Shown: one piece after another, positions 2,658-44,981 of the stretch
Layout of the letters: each line of letters opens with the position of its first letter
Numbering within the stretch: the first letter of the stretch is position 1
NCBI GenBank assembly: GCA_021787665.1
Contig: JAJYLN010000008.1
Location: 1 to 64,000, forward strand
Length of the DNA stretch: 64,000 nt
Direction: 5' to 3'
Source of the DNA: a bacterium
Lineage (GTDB): Bacteria; JAMCPX01
The notes under the pieces: model-generated
Databases searched by the model: none
Told to the model about the DNA's origin: nothing
What the model saw: only the letters and a program-made list of their open reading frames with translations
Made by a program: the position numbers and the translations under genes

Positions 2658-4199
2658 ATGAGGTTTGTAGTAGGGATTGTACTGCCTGCCCTGCTGCTCA
2701 GCATGGTAGCTTCGTGCGGCTCGGCAGGGAATTACGCGGGCTCGCCGGCCGAACAAGTGGGGTCCCCAGGCCAGGGGGCCGGGGCGATAGCCCCGGTAGG
2801 TCCGCAGCCCCTGAGCTACGTGCTCTCCTCTCCCGCCGCGACAAACAGGTATGTCTTCGTGGCGAACACGACGAACAATACGGTCGCAAAGATCGACGAG
2901 AGCAACCTGTCCATAACCTCCATACCCGTGGGACTCATGCCCACGGCCGTCGACGTCACACCGGACAACCGCACCGCGGCCGTGTTCAATGCCGGGGACT
3001 ACTCGGTGTCGCTCATAGACATATCCACGGACACGGTCACGACCCTGCCCGTGGACACCTACGACAACACCATGGTCGTGTCCCCGTCCGGCAACGTCGC
3101 GATTACCTACTTCGATCCGTCGAAGTCATCCAACCTCCTGGCAAATCCCACGCGCAACTTTAACGATATCACTATCGTCGATATCACCGGTGCGACATCT
3201 GCCCTGGTCAACGTGGGCTACCTGCCCTATGCGGTCGTGTTTACCCCGGACGGCAGCAAGGCGCTGGCCGTCACCACATCCCTGATCAGCGTCATCGACC
3301 TGTACCGTGGCTATGCCGTTACCCGCTATCAGCTCGTGGACCCGACCCAGCAGCAGATAGTGCCGTCGTCCCTCAAGATCACGGCGGACGGCAGGTTCGC
3401 CCTGGCCGTGGTACAGGGCTCCAGCGATGTCGTCGTGCTGGACCTGACAAACGGCAGCAAGACCGTGCTCAGCCTCGGCCCTACGGTGACCGACATCGGG
3501 CTTACGGCCGACGGCTCGCGGGCGATAGCGGTCAACCAGGGCAATGGCAGCCTCTCCTTCATCACCCTGTCCACGTTCAGGGTAACGACCCTGTACACAG
3601 GCCTGGACATAAACAGCATAGCCGTGTCCCCTGATGGCACGGACGCCCTGCTTTACACCAACAGCCCCACCACTACCACGGCGGCAGGCGAGACCGTGTA
3701 CGTGCTCTCGTTCACCGACAGCTCGATTCAGTCCTACCCGGTTATAAAGGGCGTCAGTTCCGTGATCATGGCCCCGTTCACCATCACGACCGGTGTCTCG
3801 TCCGCGATCATCGTACATAATGGTCCGGGCGGCTCGTCATCGGACCCGGTCAAGCAGTTTTTCTATAACAATTATGCGGTCACGATGTTCAACATGGCGA
3901 CAGGGGTGTCCACACCCGTTGCGCTCGTTTCGAGGCCTACCCTTTTTGCGGTAAGCAGCGACGGCGCGTACGGGTACGCGATGATGCCGGACTCCGACGC
4001 CATCGCAGTCTTCGACCTCCTTACCCAGATAGCTACCGGCGTCTATGTGCCGTCCACGCCGACCTTCGTCGGGGTCATGCCCGGCATGCATACGGCTTAC
4101 CTAGGGGAGACGTACCCGCTGGGGAGGCTAAGCTTTATAGAGCCGGACCAGGGCATAGCGGTCAGGACGATCACGGGATTCGAACTAAAGACGAACTGA
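2658..4199 (+). CDS. YncE-like beta-propeller lipoprotein
   Basis: Start moved from ORF 2577 to the ATG at 2658 (MRFVVGIVLPALLLSMVASCGSAG, lipobox). Repeated 'VTPDNRTAAVFNAGDYSVSLID' propeller blades. Confidence 0.75.
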   Translation: MRFVVGIVLPALLLSMVASCGSAGNYAGSPAEQVGSPGQGAGAIAPVGPQPLSYVLSSPAATNRYVFVANTTNNTVAKIDESNLSITSIPVGLMPTAVDVTPDNRTAAVFNAGDYSVSLIDISTDTVTTLPVDTYDNTMVVSPSGNVAITYFDPSKSSNLLANPTRNFNDITIVDITGATSALVNVGYLPYAVVFTPDGSKALAVTTSLISVIDLYRGYAVTRYQLVDPTQQQIVPSSLKITADGRFALAVVQGSSDVVVLDLTNGSKTVLSLGPTVTDIGLTADGSRAIAVNQGNGSLSFITLSTFRVTTLYTGLDINSIAVSPDGTDALLYTNSPTTTTAAGETVYVLSFTDSSIQSYPVIKGVSSVIMAPFTITTGVSSAIIVHNGPGGSSSDPVKQFFYNNYAVTMFNMATGVSTPVALVSRPTLFAVSSDGAYGYAMMPDSDAIAVFDLLTQIATGVYVPSTPTFVGVMPGMHTAYLGETYPLGRLSFIEPDQGIAVRTITGFELKTN

Positions 4200-4200
4200 T

Positions 4201-5661
4201 ATGAAGAAGCTGTGGATCATCATGATAATAGCGATAACGGCGGCTTCGTGCTCCGGCGGAAACACCACGCTGGCCCCGGCCTCGTCCTTTACCCTCACGA
4301 GCGCCGGGAACGACGTCTACGTGCTGAGCAAGCAGTGGGGGATCGTGACGAGGATAGACATGACCACCCTCGGCCTGACGACCTACAACGTCGGGGTCGG
4401 GGCCAGCATGGTCCTGCCAGCGTCCGGCAGCGTCGCGGTGCTGAACCCCTCTACGGACACGGTCTATATTATCAACGGCTCTGTTGTCAAAAAGACGATA
4501 GCAGATCATCTCAACGACATGGTCATTTCATCGGACGGCTCGCACGCGGTGGTCTTTCACAACTATATACCCGGCGAGGAGGCGAACTTCAACGGCGTTC
4601 TCGTATTCAATACCTTCTCGGTCGTAAACCTCACGACGACGACGGACGACACCGACACCCTGAGCATAGGCGGGGGCGCGCCGCAGGAGGTCGCATTCAC
4701 GCCCGACGGGAGCAGGTTCATCGTGATCTCCCGTAACAAGTGCTTCGTCGTGCCGACGACGGCGCCGTCGGACAGTAACTTCATCGAGCTGTGGCCGGAT
4801 CCGTCGAAGGTCGTGGTGCCTGACCAGGTGTCTATCACGCCGCAGGGAGATATTGCGCTCATACGGTCGTATGCAGAGAACGCTGTGTACATCGTGAACC
4901 TCCTGACACCCTCGATTATGAACGTCCTTACGGAGAGCGGACCCACGCAGGTGGAGATCTATCCGGACGGCGAAAACGGCCTCATCGTGGACCAGGGCTC
5001 GAACAGCGTGAGCGTGCTGAGCTTCGACCACAGCGCCATGAGCGTGAGCGAGCAGCCCGTCGACGTGTCCACGCCGGTGGACGCGGCAGCGACCTCGTTC
5101 TCGTGTACCGGAGCGTGCACGCTGTCCACGGCGACATACTCGGCCCTCCTGTACTCGCCCACCAGCAGCTCCGAGGCCATCACTTACCTCATGGTCAGGA
5201 ACGGCATCATACGGACGACCGTATACGGGGGGCTCGCGCAGCCCGTACACGCCATCGCCTTTGCACCCGACGACCCGGTCATAGCCCTGATCATGCACCG
5301 TGCGACGAGCCTTCCCAACGCGGCGTACCCAATGTCCATCATCAATGTGGACACGCAGGACGTCAACCTCTTCTACATCGAGTCCGCACCGTCCTCCGTG
5401 ACCTTTGCAGAGAACCAGGCCGGGCACGAGATCGTATTCATGACCCTGAACAGCCAAAATGAGCTGGTCTACTACGACATAACCTCCGGGCTGTCCGGCT
5501 CTCTTGCGCTCCCCGCCCTGCCGGACTTCATGGGGATAAGCAACGGTACCCTGTTCATATCTCACGATCAGCCTCTCGGCTTCCTCACCCTGCTCGATAT
5601 CAATTCGTTCAGGCTGCGGTTCGTCAGCGGCTTCAATGTCTATAAGCTGTTTGACAGGTAG
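4201..5661 (+). CDS. YncE-like beta-propeller lipoprotein
   Basis: Signal peptide/lipobox MKKLWIIMIIAITAASCSGG; propeller-like repeats (VAFTPDGSRFIVISR, VSITPQGDIALIRS). Confidence 0.7.
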   Translation: MKKLWIIMIIAITAASCSGGNTTLAPASSFTLTSAGNDVYVLSKQWGIVTRIDMTTLGLTTYNVGVGASMVLPASGSVAVLNPSTDTVYIINGSVVKKTIADHLNDMVISSDGSHAVVFHNYIPGEEANFNGVLVFNTFSVVNLTTTTDDTDTLSIGGGAPQEVAFTPDGSRFIVISRNKCFVVPTTAPSDSNFIELWPDPSKVVVPDQVSITPQGDIALIRSYAENAVYIVNLLTPSIMNVLTESGPTQVEIYPDGENGLIVDQGSNSVSVLSFDHSAMSVSEQPVDVSTPVDAAATSFSCTGACTLSTATYSALLYSPTSSSEAITYLMVRNGIIRTTVYGGLAQPVHAIAFAPDDPVIALIMHRATSLPNAAYPMSIINVDTQDVNLFYIESAPSSVTFAENQAGHEIVFMTLNSQNELVYYDITSGLSGSLALPALPDFMGISNGTLFISHDQPLGFLTLLDINSFRLRFVSGFNVYKLFDR

Positions 5662-35808: not shown

Positions 35809-35840
35809 TTGACACACCCGACAAGAGGAGTAAATTACTC
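35809..35840 (+). promoter_or_regulatory. Sigma70-like promoter of the cobalamin-riboswitch transcript with a dyad at the -10
   Basis: TTGACA (35809-35814), 16-nt spacer, TAAATT (35831-35836); dyad GAGTAA-A-TTACTC (35828-35840). Confidence 0.5.
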
Positions 35841-35847
35841 TTACTTT

Positions 35848-35990
35848 TCAGTGTCAGGGAATCCGGTGAGATACCGGAGCGGCCCCGCCACTGTAAGGGC
35901 GAGCGGCTCACACAGTCACTGTTCCGCGTGTCGCGGGATGGGAAGGCATGAGCAAGCCATGACCCCAAGCCAGGAAACCTGCTGAAAAGA
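35848..35990 (+). ncRNA. Cobalamin (B12) riboswitch
   Basis: GGGAATCCGGTGAGATACCGGAGCGGCCCCGCCACTGTAAGGGCGAGC...CCATGACCCCAAGCCAGGAAACCTGCTGA, including the GCCACTG box. Confidence 0.95.
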
Positions 35991-36029
35991 ATTTACGAGA
36001 CCTCTCTTCGTGGGAGAGACGAGGCAGGA

Positions 36030-37943
36030 TTGAGAAGGTACATTGACAAGCCCGTCCTTGAGAGAGGAGGGCTTTTTTTATGCGCCTTTCTCTTGGCAGG
36101 GCCAACATACGCCGTCGGAGCATCGTACGATGTTGCTCTGCAAATGAAAGAGGTCGTCGTTACCGGAGAACGGGTCCCATCCCGCTACGAACTGAGCCCT
36201 TCCTCTGAATCTGTCATCACCGCATCGACCATGGAAAATGATGCGACGCTGCAGGATGCGCTGTCGCAGTCGTCGGATGTAACTATACCATCGTATGGCT
36301 GGATGGGCGCGCTCTCGGGCATATCCATCCGCGGTGCGGACACGAGCCAGTCCGAGATCTTGCTCGACGGTGTCCGCCTGAACAATGTCGAGCTGTCGGG
36401 GTTCGACCTCTCGACCTTCCCCCTGTCCGGCATCTCCTCCATAGATATCGCCCGGGGAGGTATGTCCAGCCTGTACGGAGAGTCCGCCATGGGCGGCGTC
36501 GTGAACATCCTGCCGGACGTGTTCCCCACAGCGGACAGCGTGGCAGTGAAGGCAATGGTGGGCAGTTTTCAGAGCTACCATGCCGATGCCACGGCAAAGG
36601 GCAGGGCCGGTGATTTCGGGTATCTTCTTTCCCCTGGGTACGAATCGTCGCAGGGCGATTACCCGTACACCGATGACAACGGCAACCAGCAGGTCCGGAC
36701 CAACAACGATTATCATGGCATGTGGGTGCTTGCAGGGATCGGGTTCAGCAGCGGCGGGAACAGGGTGTATGCCCTGACGCACCTGTATACCAGCACCAAG
36801 GGGGTGCCCGGGGCGCTCGGCATGCTTTCACCGCAGGCACAGGAACATGATACCCACGGGATCTATATTATGAATTGCACGCATACCTCGGATACTGTGA
36901 CCGTCAAGGCGGTTCTGAGCCACGTGAATGAGGATTCGTCCTATTTCGACAATGTTTATGTGCCCGAATCCAGTCCGTCGAAGTCCGATGACACGGACAA
37001 CGAGGCCGGCGTTACGGTCAGCCTCCTCCGTATTCCCTACAATACCATCAGTATCAACGGTGACGGGCTTTTGCAGCAGGCGGTATCCACGAATATCGGC
37101 CGGCACACCCGTACCACCGGAAGTATCGGCGTGGAAGATATCGCACACCCGCTCGAGTGGCTTGTACTCGTTGGTGACGCGGCGTACCAGCATATCTCCG
37201 ATATCGGAAGCGTTGTGACCTACGGCCTCGGTACCGCAGTCAAGCCCATCTCATGGATGGCTGTGAAGGCGCGCGTGTCGACGTCGTATCAGGCCCCGTC
37301 ACTCGATGATCTTTACTGGCCCGATGCCGCCGGTGCGCAGGGCAACCCGGCCTTGCAATCCGAGACTAAAAACGGCTATGAAGCAGGACTGCTGCTGTCA
37401 CCGCTGAGCAGTACGACCATCGAATTGAACGGGTTTTACGACCGGTATCACAACCTCATCCAATGGTCGCCGTCGATAAACAATGTGTGGATGCCGCAGA
37501 ACGTCTCCGGCGCGGTTATCCATGGCATCGAGCTCTCCCTGAAAACGTCACCCGTGGACTTTCTGACGCTCTCCGGGAACGTCGGCCTGCTGGACACACT
37601 CAACCTCTCGAACACGCCCCAGGGCGTCTACGAAAAAGGGTTGTTATACAGGCCGGACATCATCGAAAACACCTGCATAAAGATAGGCAGGGACAATAGG
37701 TATATAGCACTGAGTTTCGGATATACGGGACAGAGGTACGCTACACCAACGAACAGCCAGGCGCTCCCCGGGTTTTATAACCTCAGCGCAACACTGAGCT
37801 ACAGGATAGCATGGATAAGGCCCTTTATAACCTTCACGCAGTACCTCTCCGATACATTCGACACCCTGGAGAGCTACCAGTACCTGTCCGGCTATCCATT
37901 GCCGGGCAGGTATGTGTGGGGAGGGATAGAATTCAAAATATAA
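36030..37943 (+). CDS. btuB: TonB-dependent vitamin B12 receptor BtuB
   Basis: MKEVVVTGERVPSRYELSPSSESV; SGISIRGADTSQSEILLDGVRLNNVE; SLYGESAMGGVVNI. Directly follows the cobalamin riboswitch; TTG start. Confidence 0.92.
   Translation: MRRYIDKPVLERGGLFLCAFLLAGPTYAVGASYDVALQMKEVVVTGERVPSRYELSPSSESVITASTMENDATLQDALSQSSDVTIPSYGWMGALSGISIRGADTSQSEILLDGVRLNNVELSGFDLSTFPLSGISSIDIARGGMSSLYGESAMGGVVNILPDVFPTADSVAVKAMVGSFQSYHADATAKGRAGDFGYLLSPGYESSQGDYPYTDDNGNQQVRTNNDYHGMWVLAGIGFSSGGNRVYALTHLYTSTKGVPGALGMLSPQAQEHDTHGIYIMNCTHTSDTVTVKAVLSHVNEDSSYFDNVYVPESSPSKSDDTDNEAGVTVSLLRIPYNTISINGDGLLQQAVSTNIGRHTRTTGSIGVEDIAHPLEWLVLVGDAAYQHISDIGSVVTYGLGTAVKPISWMAVKARVSTSYQAPSLDDLYWPDAAGAQGNPALQSETKNGYEAGLLLSPLSSTTIELNGFYDRYHNLIQWSPSINNVWMPQNVSGAVIHGIELSLKTSPVDFLTLSGNVGLLDTLNLSNTPQGVYEKGLLYRPDIIENTCIKIGRDNRYIALSFGYTGQRYATPTNSQALPGFYNLSATLSYRIAWIRPFITFTQYLSDTFDTLESYQYLSGYPLPGRYVWGGIEFKI
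36049..36079 (+). terminator. Putative riboswitch-controlled intrinsic terminator, lying inside the 5' end of btuB
   Basis: AGCCC(g)TCC (36049-36057) / GGAGGGCT (36066-36073) followed by seven T (36073-36079). Confidence 0.65.
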
Positions 37944-37947
37944 CATC

Positions 37948-37975
37948 GTAGGGGCGGTTCGCGAACCGCCCCTAC
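37948..37975. repeat. 28-bp perfect palindromic repeat
   Basis: GTAGGGGCGGTTCGCGAACCGCCCCTAC. It is followed by TTCCGTTTACGAGGGAATGAC, also repeat-like. Confidence 0.85.
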
Positions 37976-38049
37976 GGGATTTCCGTTTACGAGGGAATGA
38001 CACAAAAAAATGAGACAGATAGATACAAATTATAAAAAAGGAGAGAAAA

Positions 38050-39186
38050 ATGAAGAGATCGAACATGAAACAGGTTTTAGGGTTTGCACTCGTGGCGACA
38101 CTGTTCGCGTTTGCCGGGTGCGGCAAGACAAGTTCGGGCAATGCTGCCCTCCCGCAGGCGCCCTACGTCATAGCGCTGTCCCAGCCGGCGGGCAGCGGTG
38201 TACCTGGCTCGCTGTATGCGCTGTCTCCGACGCAGGGTACCGTCCAGAAGATGGACTTGAACGTGGGACTGATACCGAACAGCATGCTGCTCGACGGTGA
38301 CAGTCTCTATGTCGTGAATGCGGGCGACGCTACGGTGTCCGTGATAACCATTACCGAGAGTACCTCGACTATCTACATAAGAAACAAGGGACTGATATCG
38401 TTTACAACGACGGGCTTTCCGGAATACATTACCGTGACGACAGCGGCAGGCGTTGAGAAAGGCTATGTCTCGCTGAACGGAACGAACCAGGTCGCGGTCC
38501 TGAATATGACGAACGATACGGTGATGCGGTATGTCGATATAAAGCCCTACTCCAAGACGTGGGCCCCGGGGTTCGAGGCACACCCATGGGGCTTGGCTGC
38601 TGTTAATGGTAAGATCATGGTGGCGAACAACGGGGCTCAATATTTATCTACACCGCCATACGCCCAATATGCCTCGCCGGGCATGGTAAGCGTTATCACC
38701 CCCGCAACGGATGCCGTGTCCGAGGTGACCACGACAACAGGTATCAATCTCCAGGCCGTCGAGCCCCTCACACAGACAGGCTTTGTCGTCATCTCGGCCG
38801 ACGGCTACAACAGTACTATCAACGGGTATGCGGAGCTCTTTGATAACGGATTCAGAGAAACAGGGGCTGTACAATTGAGCGGCAGTGGCGCGGCCATTGC
38901 GATCAGCAGCAGCACGGGCATGGGCTATGTGGCGTCAGGAAGCATGGTCGGGTATGACGAGATCGATACCAATACCGGCACCTTTGTCACGACGACAGAC
39001 CTGAGCAAGCAGGTTTCCGGACTGACCGGGTATAATTTGACGAGTATCAAGTTTGCGCCGGATGGAACGCTGTGGGCAACGGACTGGCAGGACAACATGG
39101 TGTTCGAGATTGATCCATCTTCGAATACGGTGATTCAGACGTTCAAACTACCTGAGCCAGCACAGGATGTGGTATTTGTGTATTAA
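38050..39186 (+). CDS. Beta-propeller lipoprotein, candidate BtuB partner (BtuG-like by context)
   Basis: Lipobox ATLFAFAGC; propeller repeats (DGDSLYVVNAGDATVSVI, APDGTLWATDWQDNMVFEIDPSSNTVIQTFKL). Lies between btuB and cobQ. Confidence 0.75.
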   Translation: MKRSNMKQVLGFALVATLFAFAGCGKTSSGNAALPQAPYVIALSQPAGSGVPGSLYALSPTQGTVQKMDLNVGLIPNSMLLDGDSLYVVNAGDATVSVITITESTSTIYIRNKGLISFTTTGFPEYITVTTAAGVEKGYVSLNGTNQVAVLNMTNDTVMRYVDIKPYSKTWAPGFEAHPWGLAAVNGKIMVANNGAQYLSTPPYAQYASPGMVSVITPATDAVSEVTTTTGINLQAVEPLTQTGFVVISADGYNSTINGYAELFDNGFRETGAVQLSGSGAAIAISSSTGMGYVASGSMVGYDEIDTNTGTFVTTTDLSKQVSGLTGYNLTSIKFAPDGTLWATDWQDNMVFEIDPSSNTVIQTFKLPEPAQDVVFVY

Positions 39187-39342: not shown

Positions 39343-40908
39343 ATGGCATGTAAGACGCTGATGGTACAGGGCACGGGCTCGGGTGTCGGCAAGAGCACGG
39401 TGGTTGCGGGCCTGTGCAGGGTATTCAGGGACATGGGTGTCCGGGTGGCTCCGTTCAAGGCGCAGAACATAGCATTGAACTCTTCCATCACGATCGACGG
39501 AGGTGAAATTGCCAGGGCACAGGCGCTCCAGGCCCTGGCATCTGGCATAGAGCCCTCCGTGGACATGAACCCGGTCCTGATCAAGCCCTCGGACAAAAAT
39601 ACAGCACAGGTCATCGTGCACGGAAAAGTATGTGCGGATGTAAGAGCCGGCACATACCATAGACTGAAAAAGACGCTTGCATCCGACATAAAAGAATCAT
39701 TCGACAGGCTTTGCATGCAATACGATCTCATCGTCCTGGAAGGCGCAGGCAGTGCAGCGGAGATCAACCTCGCGAAAGACGAGCAGGTCAATATGTTCAT
39801 GGCACGGTACGCGGGCGCGCCGGTCCTGCTCGTAGCAGACATAGACAGAGGCGGCGTGTTTGCGTCTTTCTACGGCACGGTCAAGCTGCTCGGCAGGGAC
39901 AGCAGGTACATCAAGGGACTGATCATAAACGGGTTCAGAGGGAACATGGACATGTTCGGGCCCGGTCTCGATATGATCCGGGGGAAGACCGGAAAGCCCG
40001 TTGTCGGCGTGATACCATATATCAACGACATCGGACTGCCGGAAGAGGACGGATGGCTGATGTCCCGGCAGGGGAATGCAGCAGGTGATAGAGGGAATAA
40101 TGCGGGGACGTCGCGCCAACGTCGGGATGTCCCTGTAGTAACTATCGTTGTCGTCAAGCTGCAGTACATCTCGAACTTCACGGACTTCGACCCTCTTTCC
40201 TGTGAGCAGGACGTTGACCTTGTGTTCTCCGGCAGCCCCGCGGTCATCAGGCAGGCCGATATGGTGATCGTCCCAGGCTCGAAGAACACCATGGACGACC
40301 TCTCGTTTTTGCGCAGCACAGGCATGGAGCATGCGATACGGGACGCCCACGCAAAAGGCACAGAGATAATCGGTATATGCGGGGGCTACCAGATGCTGGG
40401 CAAAAGGCTTTGTAATCCATACAAGACCGAAGGCGCGATCAAGCGGGCGAACGGTATCGGGCTGCTGGACATAGAGACGACCTTCCAGAGACATAAGATC
40501 ACGTGTCAGGTCGAGGCTGAACTGGTTGGAGGAAACGGATGGCTGAAAGCCGGAAGGTTAAAAGGTTTGCATGCCTATGAGATCCATATGGGCGAGAGCA
40601 GGGGAGATATAGGACTGTTCAGGATAAACCGGCTTACCGCAGATACAGAGGGCCGCGTAAAGATACAGCAGACGCTCATGGACGGGTCCATGAACGGTAA
40701 TTGCTGGGGCACATATATGCACGGCATCTTCGAGAACGACCGTTTCAGGCGATACCTGCTCGACCGTGTCAGGGACAAAAAAGGGCTGGGGCCGCTGCAT
40801 CGTAGGTCGAGCTATGCCCGGGCAAGAGAGGGCGCCATCGACAGACTCGCGAAGGTCATACGAGTGAGCCTCGACATGGATTTTATAAAAAGGACCGTTG
40901 GACTATGA
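39343..40908 (+). CDS. cobQ: Cobyric acid synthase
   Basis: MVQGTGSGVGKSTVVAGLCRVF; PFKAQNIALNSSIT; GSGAAEINL-type LEGAGSAAEINL; ISNFTDFDPL; GICGGYQMLG; start moved from 39295. Confidence 0.95.
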   Translation: MACKTLMVQGTGSGVGKSTVVAGLCRVFRDMGVRVAPFKAQNIALNSSITIDGGEIARAQALQALASGIEPSVDMNPVLIKPSDKNTAQVIVHGKVCADVRAGTYHRLKKTLASDIKESFDRLCMQYDLIVLEGAGSAAEINLAKDEQVNMFMARYAGAPVLLVADIDRGGVFASFYGTVKLLGRDSRYIKGLIINGFRGNMDMFGPGLDMIRGKTGKPVVGVIPYINDIGLPEEDGWLMSRQGNAAGDRGNNAGTSRQRRDVPVVTIVVVKLQYISNFTDFDPLSCEQDVDLVFSGSPAVIRQADMVIVPGSKNTMDDLSFLRSTGMEHAIRDAHAKGTEIIGICGGYQMLGKRLCNPYKTEGAIKRANGIGLLDIETTFQRHKITCQVEAELVGGNGWLKAGRLKGLHAYEIHMGESRGDIGLFRINRLTADTEGRVKIQQTLMDGSMNGNCWGTYMHGIFENDRFRRYLLDRVRDKKGLGPLHRRSSYARAREGAIDRLAKVIRVSLDMDFIKRTVGL

Positions 40909-42356
40909 CTAAAAAGACCCGCCCGGTGCTGAAGGGAGTCGTTATAGCCGGAACACACAGCGGGTGCGGAAAGACGACCGTAACGCTGGGGATTCTCAGC
41001 GCATTAAAAAAGAAAGGCCTGAGGGCCCAGCCGTTCAAGGCAGGCCCGGATTTTATAGATGCGGGCCTGCACGCCTCTGTTACGGGCTTGTCCTCGAGGA
41101 ACCTTGACGTATGGATGTGCGGCGAGGAAGGGGTAAGGCAATGCTTTTATAAATATGCTTCGGATGCCGATATCTCGGTTGTGGAAGGCGTCATGGGCAT
41201 GTATGACGGTTCTTATAGTACAGCCGCACTTGCCGGATTATTGCAGGTACCGGTGGTCCTCGTTGTCGATGCTTATGGCATGGCCGAGAGCGCAGGGGCC
41301 GTGGTGGAAGGGTTTGCCGAGCATAGAAAAACAAACACGTTTGCAGGCGTAATCTTCAACCGCGTATCATCCAAAAGGCATTTTGACATGCTGAAACGCG
41401 CGATCAGGAAGGTACCCGTCCTGGGTTATCTCCCCTATGACAGGGATTTTGAAATCAAGGAGCGGCACCTCGGACTGATGACTGCACAGGAGAGCCATCT
41501 GTCGCAACGAGACATCGATAGGCTTGGGAAAACGGTCCTTGAGCACATCGATGTGAAGGACATAATAGACCGGTCCGTCGTAGGGGCAGGGCCGCGGGGG
41601 CGTCATTCTGCAGGAGTCCGGCCATCGGCGGGACGACTGAAGAACCTCAAGGATGTAGATTCTTCGCCTTCGGCTCAGAATGACAGGATAAAAACAGGTC
41701 CTTCGCCGAACATCCGCATTGCCCTTGCGTATGACAGGGCATTTTGTTTTTACTATGAAGATAATCTTGATGCATTGAGAGACGCCGGCGCTGAGATCAT
41801 CAAATTCAGCCCCCTGCAGGACAAACGCCTGCCTGAAGCGGATGTCCTGTACCTCGGCGGAGGGTATCCCGAGGTTCATGCCCAGGCATTGTCAGAGAAC
41901 CGACCGATGATGGAATCAGTCAGGAGATGGGTCGGCGCAAACAGACCGATATATGCGGAGTGCGGAGGCATGATGTACCTGTCAAAAGGGATACACGGCT
42001 TTGACAGCAGGTTTTACCGTATGGCAGGCGTGATGCCCTTTGAAACCGTGATGGACAGGTCGAATCTGTATTTGGGCTACCGGGAAATAGTCCTGAAGGA
42101 AGATTGCATCATAGGAAAGAAAGGAGACCGTCTCAGGGGGCAGGAGTTCCACTATTCGCACCTCAGGACCGTATCGCCGGACAGATCATTGAAAACGTGC
42201 TATAAACTGGGGAGGCGGAACCGCGAAGAAGGCTATCGTGTACAACGTGTTCTTGCAAGCTATATACATATACATTTTTGCTCCAACCCGGACATTGCGG
42301 GTCACTTTATAAATTTCGTAAGGCAGGGGGACATAGAATGCTCAGGGGATGTATAG
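40905..42356 (+). CDS. cobB: Cobyrinate a,c-diamide synthase
   Basis: IAGTHSGCGKTTVTLGIL; PFKAGPDFIDAGLH; VVEGVMGMYDG; AYDRAFCFYYEDNLDAL; YAECGGMMYLSKGI. Confidence 0.94.
   Translation: MTKKTRPVLKGVVIAGTHSGCGKTTVTLGILSALKKKGLRAQPFKAGPDFIDAGLHASVTGLSSRNLDVWMCGEEGVRQCFYKYASDADISVVEGVMGMYDGSYSTAALAGLLQVPVVLVVDAYGMAESAGAVVEGFAEHRKTNTFAGVIFNRVSSKRHFDMLKRAIRKVPVLGYLPYDRDFEIKERHLGLMTAQESHLSQRDIDRLGKTVLEHIDVKDIIDRSVVGAGPRGRHSAGVRPSAGRLKNLKDVDSSPSAQNDRIKTGPSPNIRIALAYDRAFCFYYEDNLDALRDAGAEIIKFSPLQDKRLPEADVLYLGGGYPEVHAQALSENRPMMESVRRWVGANRPIYAECGGMMYLSKGIHGFDSRFYRMAGVMPFETVMDRSNLYLGYREIVLKEDCIIGKKGDRLRGQEFHYSHLRTVSPDRSLKTCYKLGRRNREEGYRVQRVLASYIHIHFCSNPDIAGHFINFVRQGDIECSGDV
41582..41690. repeat. Palindromic repeat element inside cobB, read through in frame
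   Basis: GTCATTCTG (41602-41610) / CAGAATGAC (41676-41684); 'AGATTCTTCGCCTTCGGCTCAGAATGAC' resembles widely dispersed intergenic repeats; 5' end 'CGTAGGGGCAGG' resembles the 37948 repeat. Confidence 0.65.
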
Positions 42357-43234
42357 CTTTTGCATTATGTATGGTCGCAGGTCACCTGTATGCGCTGACC
42401 CTGCATCACCGGGACTCTACAGCCATCACCGTGCATGACGATACGGGAAGGCTCGTGTCCATCCGCCTTCCCGCAAGGCGCATCGTCACGCTTGCCCCGT
42501 CGAATACCATGATCGTCACGGCGCTTGGTATGACAGCTACCATCGTCGGTGCAAGCAGTACCGACGATGACCCCTTGCCGGCAGCGGTGAAAAGGGTAGG
42601 GTCTGTCAACCCGTCCATAGAGGATATCGTCTCTCTGCGGCCCTCGCTGGTGATGGGGATATACGGCGAGGAAGGGCTCTGCGACAGGCTCGAGCGGCTC
42701 CGTATTTCCTGTATGATACTGTCACCCCACGATATCCGCGGGGTGATGCACGACATAGAGCTTGTCGGTCGGGTTTTATCGGCAGGCACCGCGGCTTCGG
42801 CCGTCGTGAAAGGCATGGAGAAGAGACTGCATTGGGTGAGCTCGAAGCTGAAGCATTGCAGGACAAGGCCGCTTGTCTATTTCGAGATCGATGCATCCGA
42901 CCCATCGAGACCGTTCTCCGCAGGCAGGGGCAGCTTTATCGACAGCCTGATAGTCATGTCTCATGCGGTGAATATAGCGCACGATGTCAGAACGATGTGG
43001 CCGCAGCTCTCATCGGAATATATCTTAGCGCGAGATCCGGACGTCATCATTCTGTCGGACGGCCTCCCTGTGCGTGCTTTGCGGAAGCGGCCCGGGTGGT
43101 CCCGGATAAAGGCGGTCAGGAACGGCAGGGTCTACTCCATACGCAATGACCTTGTCTCAAGGCCGGGGCCGGAAATTGTCGATGCATTTATCCGGATAGC
43201 AGAGGACATCCACCCCGAGGTGTTCGACCGATGA
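42338..43234 (+). CDS. btuF: Periplasmic cobalamin-binding protein (BtuF-like)
   Basis: ARRIVTLAPSNTMIVTALGMTATIVGAS; RPSLVMGIYGE; RDPDVIILSDG; start moved from 42278. Confidence 0.85.
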   Translation: MLRGCIAFALCMVAGHLYALTLHHRDSTAITVHDDTGRLVSIRLPARRIVTLAPSNTMIVTALGMTATIVGASSTDDDPLPAAVKRVGSVNPSIEDIVSLRPSLVMGIYGEEGLCDRLERLRISCMILSPHDIRGVMHDIELVGRVLSAGTAASAVVKGMEKRLHWVSSKLKHCRTRPLVYFEIDASDPSRPFSAGRGSFIDSLIVMSHAVNIAHDVRTMWPQLSSEYILARDPDVIILSDGLPVRALRKRPGWSRIKAVRNGRVYSIRNDLVSRPGPEIVDAFIRIAEDIHPEVFDR

Positions 43235-44232
43235 AACGGGGGCCGGGCTATCTCTTGTGGACAGGGCTCACGCTGTGCCTGTTCGCGGCGTTTCTGTTCA
43301 CTATCGCCATAGGCCCGGTGAACATACCCCTTTGGGACGTGGTACATGTATTCCTGTCTTCATCGAGGAGCGTGGACAGCACTATCGTTCTCTCCCTCCG
43401 GCTGCCCGTTGCCGTAGCCTGCGTCATCGTCGGTGCAGGACTTGGGGTGAGCGGGGCACTATTCCAGGCAGTTCTCCGCAACCCGCTCGCAGACCCCTAT
43501 ATCCTCGGCGTCTCTGCCGGCGCTGCTCTCGGTGCCGCGGTCGCACAGGCGGGTATGCCGGGCAGCGTCTCCGTGTCCGCCTCGGCGTTTGTAGGCGCTG
43601 TGTGCGCCATGGCGATCGTGTATCTGCTCTCCCGAATGTCCGGCAGGACTACGCCGCTTTACCTGATACTCGCCGGCGTCGCGGTCAGCGCGCTGCTCGG
43701 CTCCGTGCTGTCGTTTGTCATCCTGATGAGCGGTTCGATGCAGGCAAAGATCTACTCTATCATGCTGTGGCTCATGGGCGGTGTAAAGGAGGCCGGGTGG
43801 GGCGAGCTCGGCTTCCTGGGTGTTACGTTCCTCGTACTTTTCGGACTTGCGGTCCTGATGTCCAGGTACCTCGACATACTTTCCCTCGGGGACGAGAAGG
43901 CATCGAGCCTCGGTGTCCCTGTGGAGAGGACCAGGGTCCTGGCGATGACCATCGCTGCTCTGCTCGCGGGCGTCGCGGTATACCTGAGCGGACTCGTTGG
44001 GTTCGTGGGGCTTGTTGTGCCGCATATAACGAGGCTCGTCATCGGGCCCTCGCACAGGAGGCTCATCATGGTGAGTGCCCTCGTGGGTGCCCTCTTTCTG
44101 CTGGTGTCCGACCTTATTGCAAGGACCGTGCTGGGACCGGTCGAGGTGCCGGTCGGCATCATCACCTCCCTCATCGGCGCACCATTCTTTCTCTATCTGC
44201 TGCTGCGGACCTACAGGGGGTACCGGTTCTGA
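43231..44232 (+). CDS. btuC: FecCD-family ABC transporter permease (BtuC-like)
   Basis: LSLRLPVAVACVIVGAGLGVSGALFQAVLRNPLADPYILGVSAGAALGA; GFVGLVVPHITRL. Confidence 0.92.
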   Translation: MKRGPGYLLWTGLTLCLFAAFLFTIAIGPVNIPLWDVVHVFLSSSRSVDSTIVLSLRLPVAVACVIVGAGLGVSGALFQAVLRNPLADPYILGVSAGAALGAAVAQAGMPGSVSVSASAFVGAVCAMAIVYLLSRMSGRTTPLYLILAGVAVSALLGSVLSFVILMSGSMQAKIYSIMLWLMGGVKEAGWGELGFLGVTFLVLFGLAVLMSRYLDILSLGDEKASSLGVPVERTRVLAMTIAALLAGVAVYLSGLVGFVGLVVPHITRLVIGPSHRRLIMVSALVGALFLLVSDLIARTVLGPVEVPVGIITSLIGAPFFLYLLLRTYRGYRF

Positions 44233-44981
44233 TGTTCTTCTCTCTGAACGATGTCTCGTTCACCCGGAACAGTACGTTCAAGATGAAGGACGTGACCTTC
44301 GGGATCGAAAGGGGAGAGATGCTGGGGATCATAGGGCCCAACGGCTCCGGCAAGACGACGCTGCTCAAGATCATGGCCGGAATACTCAGGCCCCACCGGG
44401 GCAGTATTATGGTGAACGGGAGTAATATGCATACCCTGAAGCACAGGGACCTTGCCCGGATACGGGCATATGTGCCGGAGGGAATCGACCTGCCGTTCGA
44501 CTACGACGTCTATGATATCGTGGCGCTGGGCCGGCACCCCTACGCCGGCATGCTCTCCGGACTTGACGGAAAAGACAGGGCGGCCATCGATAGCGCGTTC
44601 GAGCTCACCGATACGCGCGGGCTCCTGCACAGAAAATTTTTTGCGCTGTCCATGGGCGAGAAGCAGAGGGTCATGCTTGCGATGGCCATCGCGCAGGGGC
44701 CTGAGCTTCTGCTGCTCGACGAGCCCATCTCGCATCTCGACATCGGCCACCAGCTCGCGTTCGTCCGTACACTGAAGCAACTCAACAGGGGAGGGATGAC
44801 GATCGTCTCTGCCCTGCACGAACTCCCCATCGCACAGGAGACCTTCGGGAGGTTGTGTCTCATGGACAGCGGGAGGATCGTCAGGGCCTGCCCGGCCGGC
44901 GACAAAGGGCTGCTGGAAGACATCAAAGGGGTGTTCGGAGTAAACGATGAGCGGTTCATCGTATGTCCGTCGCAAGAGTGA
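44232..44981 (+). CDS. btuD: ABC transporter ATPase (BtuD/FepC-like)
   Basis: IIGPNGSGKTTLLKIMAGIL; LSMGEKQRVMLAMAIAQGPELLLLDEPISHLDI. True start is ATG 44232 within ORF 43257..44981. Confidence 0.92.
   Translation: MFFSLNDVSFTRNSTFKMKDVTFGIERGEMLGIIGPNGSGKTTLLKIMAGILRPHRGSIMVNGSNMHTLKHRDLARIRAYVPEGIDLPFDYDVYDIVALGRHPYAGMLSGLDGKDRAAIDSAFELTDTRGLLHRKFFALSMGEKQRVMLAMAIAQGPELLLLDEPISHLDIGHQLAFVRTLKQLNRGGMTIVSALHELPIAQETFGRLCLMDSGRIVRACPAGDKGLLEDIKGVFGVNDERFIVCPSQE

Follow-up and report, generated by a model that had tools for sequence, protein, structure and literature searches.

BtuG proteins bind corrinoids with femtomolar to picomolar affinity and associate with BtuB on the surface of the cell. 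We take BtuG to be the PF16819 (DUF5074) family of the Bacteroidota, with BtuG2 (BT1954; PDB 3dsm, 8bmx and 8bmy) among its members. BtuG has been described as exclusive to Bacteroidetes, a restriction attributed to competition in the gut (PMC6143338), and, subscription papers and preprints aside, we found no description in the literature of a BtuG-like BtuB partner in other phyla. In a 2026 paper, DUF4465 genes from eight clades are noted as frequent neighbours of PF16819 (PMC13398666), which already implies in part a presence beyond Bacteroidetes. Here we describe a bacterial locus, within a stretch of 64,000 nucleotides (the window), in which a propeller lipoprotein (LP) is encoded next to btuB behind a cobalamin riboswitch. 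We consider it likely that LP is a lipid-anchored propeller that forms an outer-membrane corrinoid-capture unit with the neighbouring BtuB, and that its family stands as a sister to BtuG.

Organisation of the B12 locus

Matches to RF00174, Pfam and NCBIfam models bear out the gene order given in the initial annotation, namely riboswitch, btuB, a 378-aa lipoprotein, cobQ, cobB, btuF, btuC and btuD (Table 1), and the two further propeller lipoproteins that it reported in the window are present at 2577/2658-4199 and 4201-5661. The receptor has a plug (2e-19) and a barrel (6e-23) in Pfam, and among NCBIfam models the B12 receptor TIGR01779 fits it best, at 7e-35 and far under the equivalog cut-off; it is named BtuB-type on the basis of this best model together with its context. 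Its orthologues start with ATG or GTG at the position of the TTG start used here, and the btuB and LP genes are out of frame relative to each other in the phylum. The palindrome between the two genes occurs once in the window and in this genome only, being absent from the other genomes compared, and could weaken co-transcription in this genome.

Table 1 Features of the B12 locus and of related loci (window coordinates unless a locus is named).
Feature	Position	Strand	Remarks
Promoter-like site TTGACA-N16-TAAATT	35809..35836	+	Consensus match only; adjoins riboswitch on its 5′ side
Cobalamin riboswitch aptamer RF00174	35832..36000	+	98.9 bits against gathering score of 31.5
Expression platform, antiterminator versus terminator reading	36001..36078	+	Alternative pairing inferred from sequence
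btuB-type TonB-dependent outer-membrane receptor	36030..37943	+	TTG start; plug and barrel in Pfam
Palindrome, btuB/LP intergenic	37946..37977	+	Perfect, 28 bp; weak terminator-like tail
LP (propeller lipoprotein), 378 aa	38050..39186	+	Predicted lipidated Cys24; proposed corrinoid-capturing BtuB partner
cobQ, cobyric acid synthase	39343..40908	+	7.8e-176; start 39343 probable
cobB, cobyrinic acid a,c-diamide synthase	40905..42356	+	1e-149
btuF-like periplasmic binding protein	42338..43234	+	Start 42338 probable
btuC permease	43231..44232	+	Model matches
btuD ATPase	44229..44981	+	ABC ATPase reading frame; orthologues 62-66%
VFEN domain	L024:8911-9888; L056:651-1238; L057:7129-7716; L060:12554-13534; L127-L152
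BtuB-linked propellers of other families	L023, L024, L054, L056, L057, L059, L060

Exactly one cobalamin riboswitch per genome was found in 8/9 genomes of the phylum; it lies directly 5′ of btuB on the same contig in six and on a separate contig piece in two, and the contig of the ninth genome ends within the riboswitch. The TTGACA box upstream of it is kept in six aligned genomes. Downstream of the aptamer lies the invariant element CCTCTCTT, whose complement, GAGAGAGG, forms part of a later hairpin with a T-run (36046-36078); from the sequence this pairing looks like an antiterminator/terminator pair. The intrinsic terminator lies within the first btuB codons, those of the signal peptide, and is conserved in all seven aligned genomes.

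Conservation within the phylum and corrinoid dependence

The phylum was sampled through nine genomes of one family. LP is single-copy in its own genome and has orthologues of ~65-74% identity in all eight others, with its gene immediately 3′ of btuB throughout (9/9), and retention of this order in every genome at such identity argues that it is not due to chance. A profile search of genome contigs with a phylum-only alignment matched relatives of this phylum only, these being uncultured MAGs, and the sample codes of relatives (DBS, FK, DX) suggest acid-mine-drainage sediment as a probable source habitat.

The ring-synthesis enzyme CbiH/CobJ had no match above cut-off in any of the nine genomes, in each of which the B12-binding domain was matched 6-33 times. 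Taken together, the lack of a detectable CobJ/CbiH and the many B12-binding domains suggest that these bacteria probably depend on imported corrinoids, and they seem unable to build the B12 ring. Both cobQ and cobB (39343-42356) are kept although CobJ/CbiH is undetectable, which suggests salvage of early corrinoid precursors.

Sequence and predicted fold of LP

Signal-peptide cleavage is predicted between FAFAG and C24, and the Gly-Cys lipobox is kept in orthologues with an intact N-terminus. Family models matched LP at the level of repeats only (YVTN TIGR02276, 5e-5; SGL and NHL weakly); phmmer gave no match between LP and PDB chains, single-sequence searches of the PDB and Pfam returned repeat noise only, and a search of viral contigs found nothing. 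The YVTN S-layer propeller (1l0q) ranks above BtuG in a sequence-profile search. AlphaFold2 modelled mature LP as a confident propeller (pLDDT 92, pTM 0.91) from an input alignment that took in BtuG-like rows. The structural comparison with BtuG that the initial annotation proposed returned BtuG2 of the BtuB2-BtuG2 complex at rank 1 in Foldseek (8bmx_D, TM 0.72/0.76), with BtuG chains in 14/19 top rows, though the archaeal YVTN propeller 1l0q came second with a nearly equal score. Because of this near-tie and the BtuG-like rows in the input alignment, the fold alone is no proof of a relation to BtuG. The model would be that of a seven-bladed beta-propeller, the blade number being taken from the BtuG match. 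In one orthologue (L020:7668-8786, genome G004) the first and second repeat segments have changed places relative to all others, which is either a real rearrangement of blade 1 or an assembly artefact.

Profile and phylogenetic comparison with BtuG

At gathering score, PF16819 (DUF5074) matched neither LP nor any other protein of the nine genomes. Profile-profile alignment (hhalign) linked LP to other BtuB-linked propellers at 4e-30, to the BtuG-like set at 5e-14 over 318 columns, collinear from signal peptide to C-terminus, and to BtuG of Bacteroidota at 2e-9; for the control propellers from the window the values were 5e-5 (68 columns) and 2e-3 (33 columns), in families with few full-length sequences and hence thin profiles. 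In a tree of 63 sequences, the split between the B12-locus set (40 propellers) and the generic controls (23) had an SH-aLRT value of 100, and LP fell outside the BtuG clade (support 99), grouped with other BtuB-linked propellers (support 84).

The pocket residues of BtuG2 named in PMC10404256 (NEG loop 54-56, Tyr239, Tyr316 and Tyr335) were mapped onto these sequences. An aromatic residue at Tyr239 is common to LP (7/7) and all the related propellers linked to BtuB. The NEG loop, Tyr316 and Tyr335 occur in nearly all BtuG proteins of another phylum, that of genome G349, but neither LP nor these related propellers have them, in an alignment that is uncertain in the C-terminal blades. With these marks largely missing, the pocket would be partly different if LP binds corrinoids. 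Lacking both a DUF5074 match and NEG, Tyr316 and Tyr335, LP is assigned to a sister family and not to BtuG itself, and by sequence comparison it is a distant sister of BtuG. The initial suggestion of an analogous or distantly homologous BtuG-like protein is thus supported by hhalign with its controls and by the tree, in a form that falls short of a strict BtuG.

LP-type propellers and a BtuH-like domain in other lineages

A profile built solely from the LP proteins of this phylum and run over 384 genomes found matches in nine that belong to other families (G017, G041, G063, G123, G142, G195, G200, G219 and G321), with a cobalamin riboswitch at eight of the nine loci and a BtuB-like receptor directly adjoining in 7/9. 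The initial annotation had made its proposal depend on a linkage to btuB that holds in relatives, and such linkage was seen both across the phylum and among most of these remote homologues. When the window's generic propeller lipoprotein (2658-4196) was used as a control query on the same genomes, a BtuB neighbour was found in 0/22 outside loci and a riboswitch in 0/20 scanned loci. The difference between LP relatives and control propeller is significant for BtuB adjacency, compared over equal flanks (Fisher p = 1.4e-5), and for the riboswitch (p = 2e-6), for which control loci had flanks of 1.5 kb and LP matches were counted over wider stretches. Recurrence of the pairing in several other lineages suggests that such B12 capture is probably far commoner than reported. 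Remote homologues at B12 loci end in type IX sorting, FlgD-Ig or dockerin tails, and these speak for a location of the family outside the cell.

The sole exception among the remote matches is an LP-type lipoprotein in G200 (L055:6951-7961) with no B12 genes nearby. At another locus (L060:6925-12368), two different propellers are encoded, one on either side of btuB.

An unannotated domain (VFEN) is fused to the propeller at L056, L057 and L127 and encoded beside it at L024 and L060. Searched by sequence against the PDB, it came closest to the BtuH domain of BtuG1 (E 0.025) and to BtuH2 (0.15), both sub-threshold; hhalign against the C-terminal domain of BtuG1 gave 1.4e-4, and BtuG1 was at rank 1 in Foldseek (1.4e-5, TM 0.49). 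These matches of sequence and model point to a BtuH-like domain, resembling the B12-binding domain of BtuH. The 384-genome search found VFEN in 39 genomes, often at riboswitch or BtuB loci, and did not find it in the phylum of LP. G200 also has a VFEN domain, at a separate locus (L131).

Genuine BtuG beside btuB, probably outside Bacteroidota

DUF5074 is present in 16/41 sampled genomes of the G349 phylum, which we judge not to be Bacteroidota from its small number of genomes in the sample. The genes concerned (L062, L064-L078) adjoin btuB in 14/16 loci, mostly followed by btuF, and the remaining two loci end at a contig edge. Their products match BtuG crystal structures over their full length at 1e-62 to 1e-67, and on that ground we regard them as genuine BtuG outside Bacteroidetes. 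Such a gene beside btuB in this phylum would contradict the confinement to Bacteroidetes that has been reported (PMC6143338). Within the G349 phylum, the place behind btuB is taken by a DUF5074 BtuG in some families, and G219 has a propeller of LP type there.

Proposed function and alternative explanations

We infer that LP is exposed at the surface, binds corrinoids and contacts BtuB as a lid. Under B12 shortage, read-through at the riboswitch terminator would allow transcription of btuB, LP and the downstream salvage and import genes; LP would bind corrinoids at one propeller face, outside the cell, and hand them over to BtuB for TonB-driven uptake, after which BtuF and BtuCD would move them inward. 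The side of the membrane on which LP acts bears directly on this scheme. No known surface-export signal was recognised in its lipobox (Cys-Gly-Lys...), the phylum has no proven route for surface lipoproteins and btuF lies in the same operon, all of which would suit a periplasm-facing lipoprotein of the inner leaflet of the outer membrane, relaying corrinoids from BtuB to BtuF or serving as a scaffold for the encounter of TonB and BtuF. We consider such a location improbable, given that remote same-locus homologues have type IX sorting or dockerin tails in place of the lipobox, which implies an extracellular place, and that BtuG homologues are extracellular (PMC10404256, PMC6143338). A variant of the capture-unit explanation, differing in ligand, is that the corrinoids captured by LP are mainly incomplete ones (cobyrinic acid, cobyric acid or cobinamide), which CobB and CobQ would then salvage, and not complete B12. 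This has some grounds, though we hold it to be rather unlikely: cobB and cobQ lie directly downstream of LP though CbiH/CobJ is undetectable, loss of the BtuG pocket residues would permit another ligand preference, and BtuG2 itself binds cobinamide (PMC10404256); yet CobB and CobQ may act at another step, and other members of the phylum have btuF or different cob genes after LP.

The identity of the propeller itself can be read in two further ways. An ordinary YVTN/NHL propeller lipoprotein merely travelling with btuB, its role unrelated to corrinoids, would explain why LP has family matches at repeat level only and why 1l0q fits its fold equally well, and there are other propellers in the same genome. 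We give this little credence, since linkage to btuB is phylum-wide and recurs in seven other families with none for generic propellers, and the tree parts the B12-locus propellers from generic ones; the generic-propeller controls for BtuB adjacency and riboswitch led us to reject LP as a random propeller. Acquisition of a true BtuG (DUF5074) orthologue from Bacteroidota is very improbable: LP shares the operon slot, the fold and a distant similarity with BtuG, but a DUF5074 BtuG was rejected on the PF16819 non-match, the missing pocket marks (NEG motif, Tyr316 and Tyr335) and a tree position outside the well-supported BtuG clade.

Significance and comparison with known systems

More broadly, and with a little less than even confidence, surface capture of B12 may be an ancient and widespread diderm trait, in which a propeller covers BtuB as a lid and a second, BtuH-like binder is often present. 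BtuG of gut Bacteroides would be one branch, and other phyla would use divergent propellers whose pocket is built differently and whose anchoring relies on lipid, type IX secretion or dockerin. If this is true, extracellular corrinoid capture would be a general strategy among B12-dependent diderms. The LP set offers checkable proteins for asking how corrinoids might be bound when the pocket residues known from BtuG are missing, and a route to tracing the evolution of the lid and its delivery to the cell surface.

The transport core of E. coli, BtuB-BtuF-BtuCD, is common to the present locus, whereas E. coli B12 uptake has no propeller partner. The archaeal YVTN S-layer propeller (1l0q) and YncE (3vgz) are like LP in repeat chemistry and fold, 1l0q being structurally close, but both lack a B12 or BtuB context and their similarity to LP is repeat-wise, not collinear. 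The BtuB-linked propellers found elsewhere adjoin BtuB behind a cobalamin riboswitch as LP does and align with it at 4e-30, although several of them depend for export on a C-terminal tail, type IX-like or dockerin, where LP is lipidated, and some, unlike LP, are fused to a BtuH-like domain; the fusion of VFEN and propeller resembles Bacteroides BtuG1, in which BtuH is likewise fused. BtuG belongs to a different phylum and to a clade that does not include LP, which is without the DUF5074 match, the NEG loop, Tyr316/Tyr335 and the Bacteroidetes lipoprotein export signal, but both are propeller lipoproteins adjoining btuB in a riboswitch-linked B12 locus and both share the Tyr239 aromatic.
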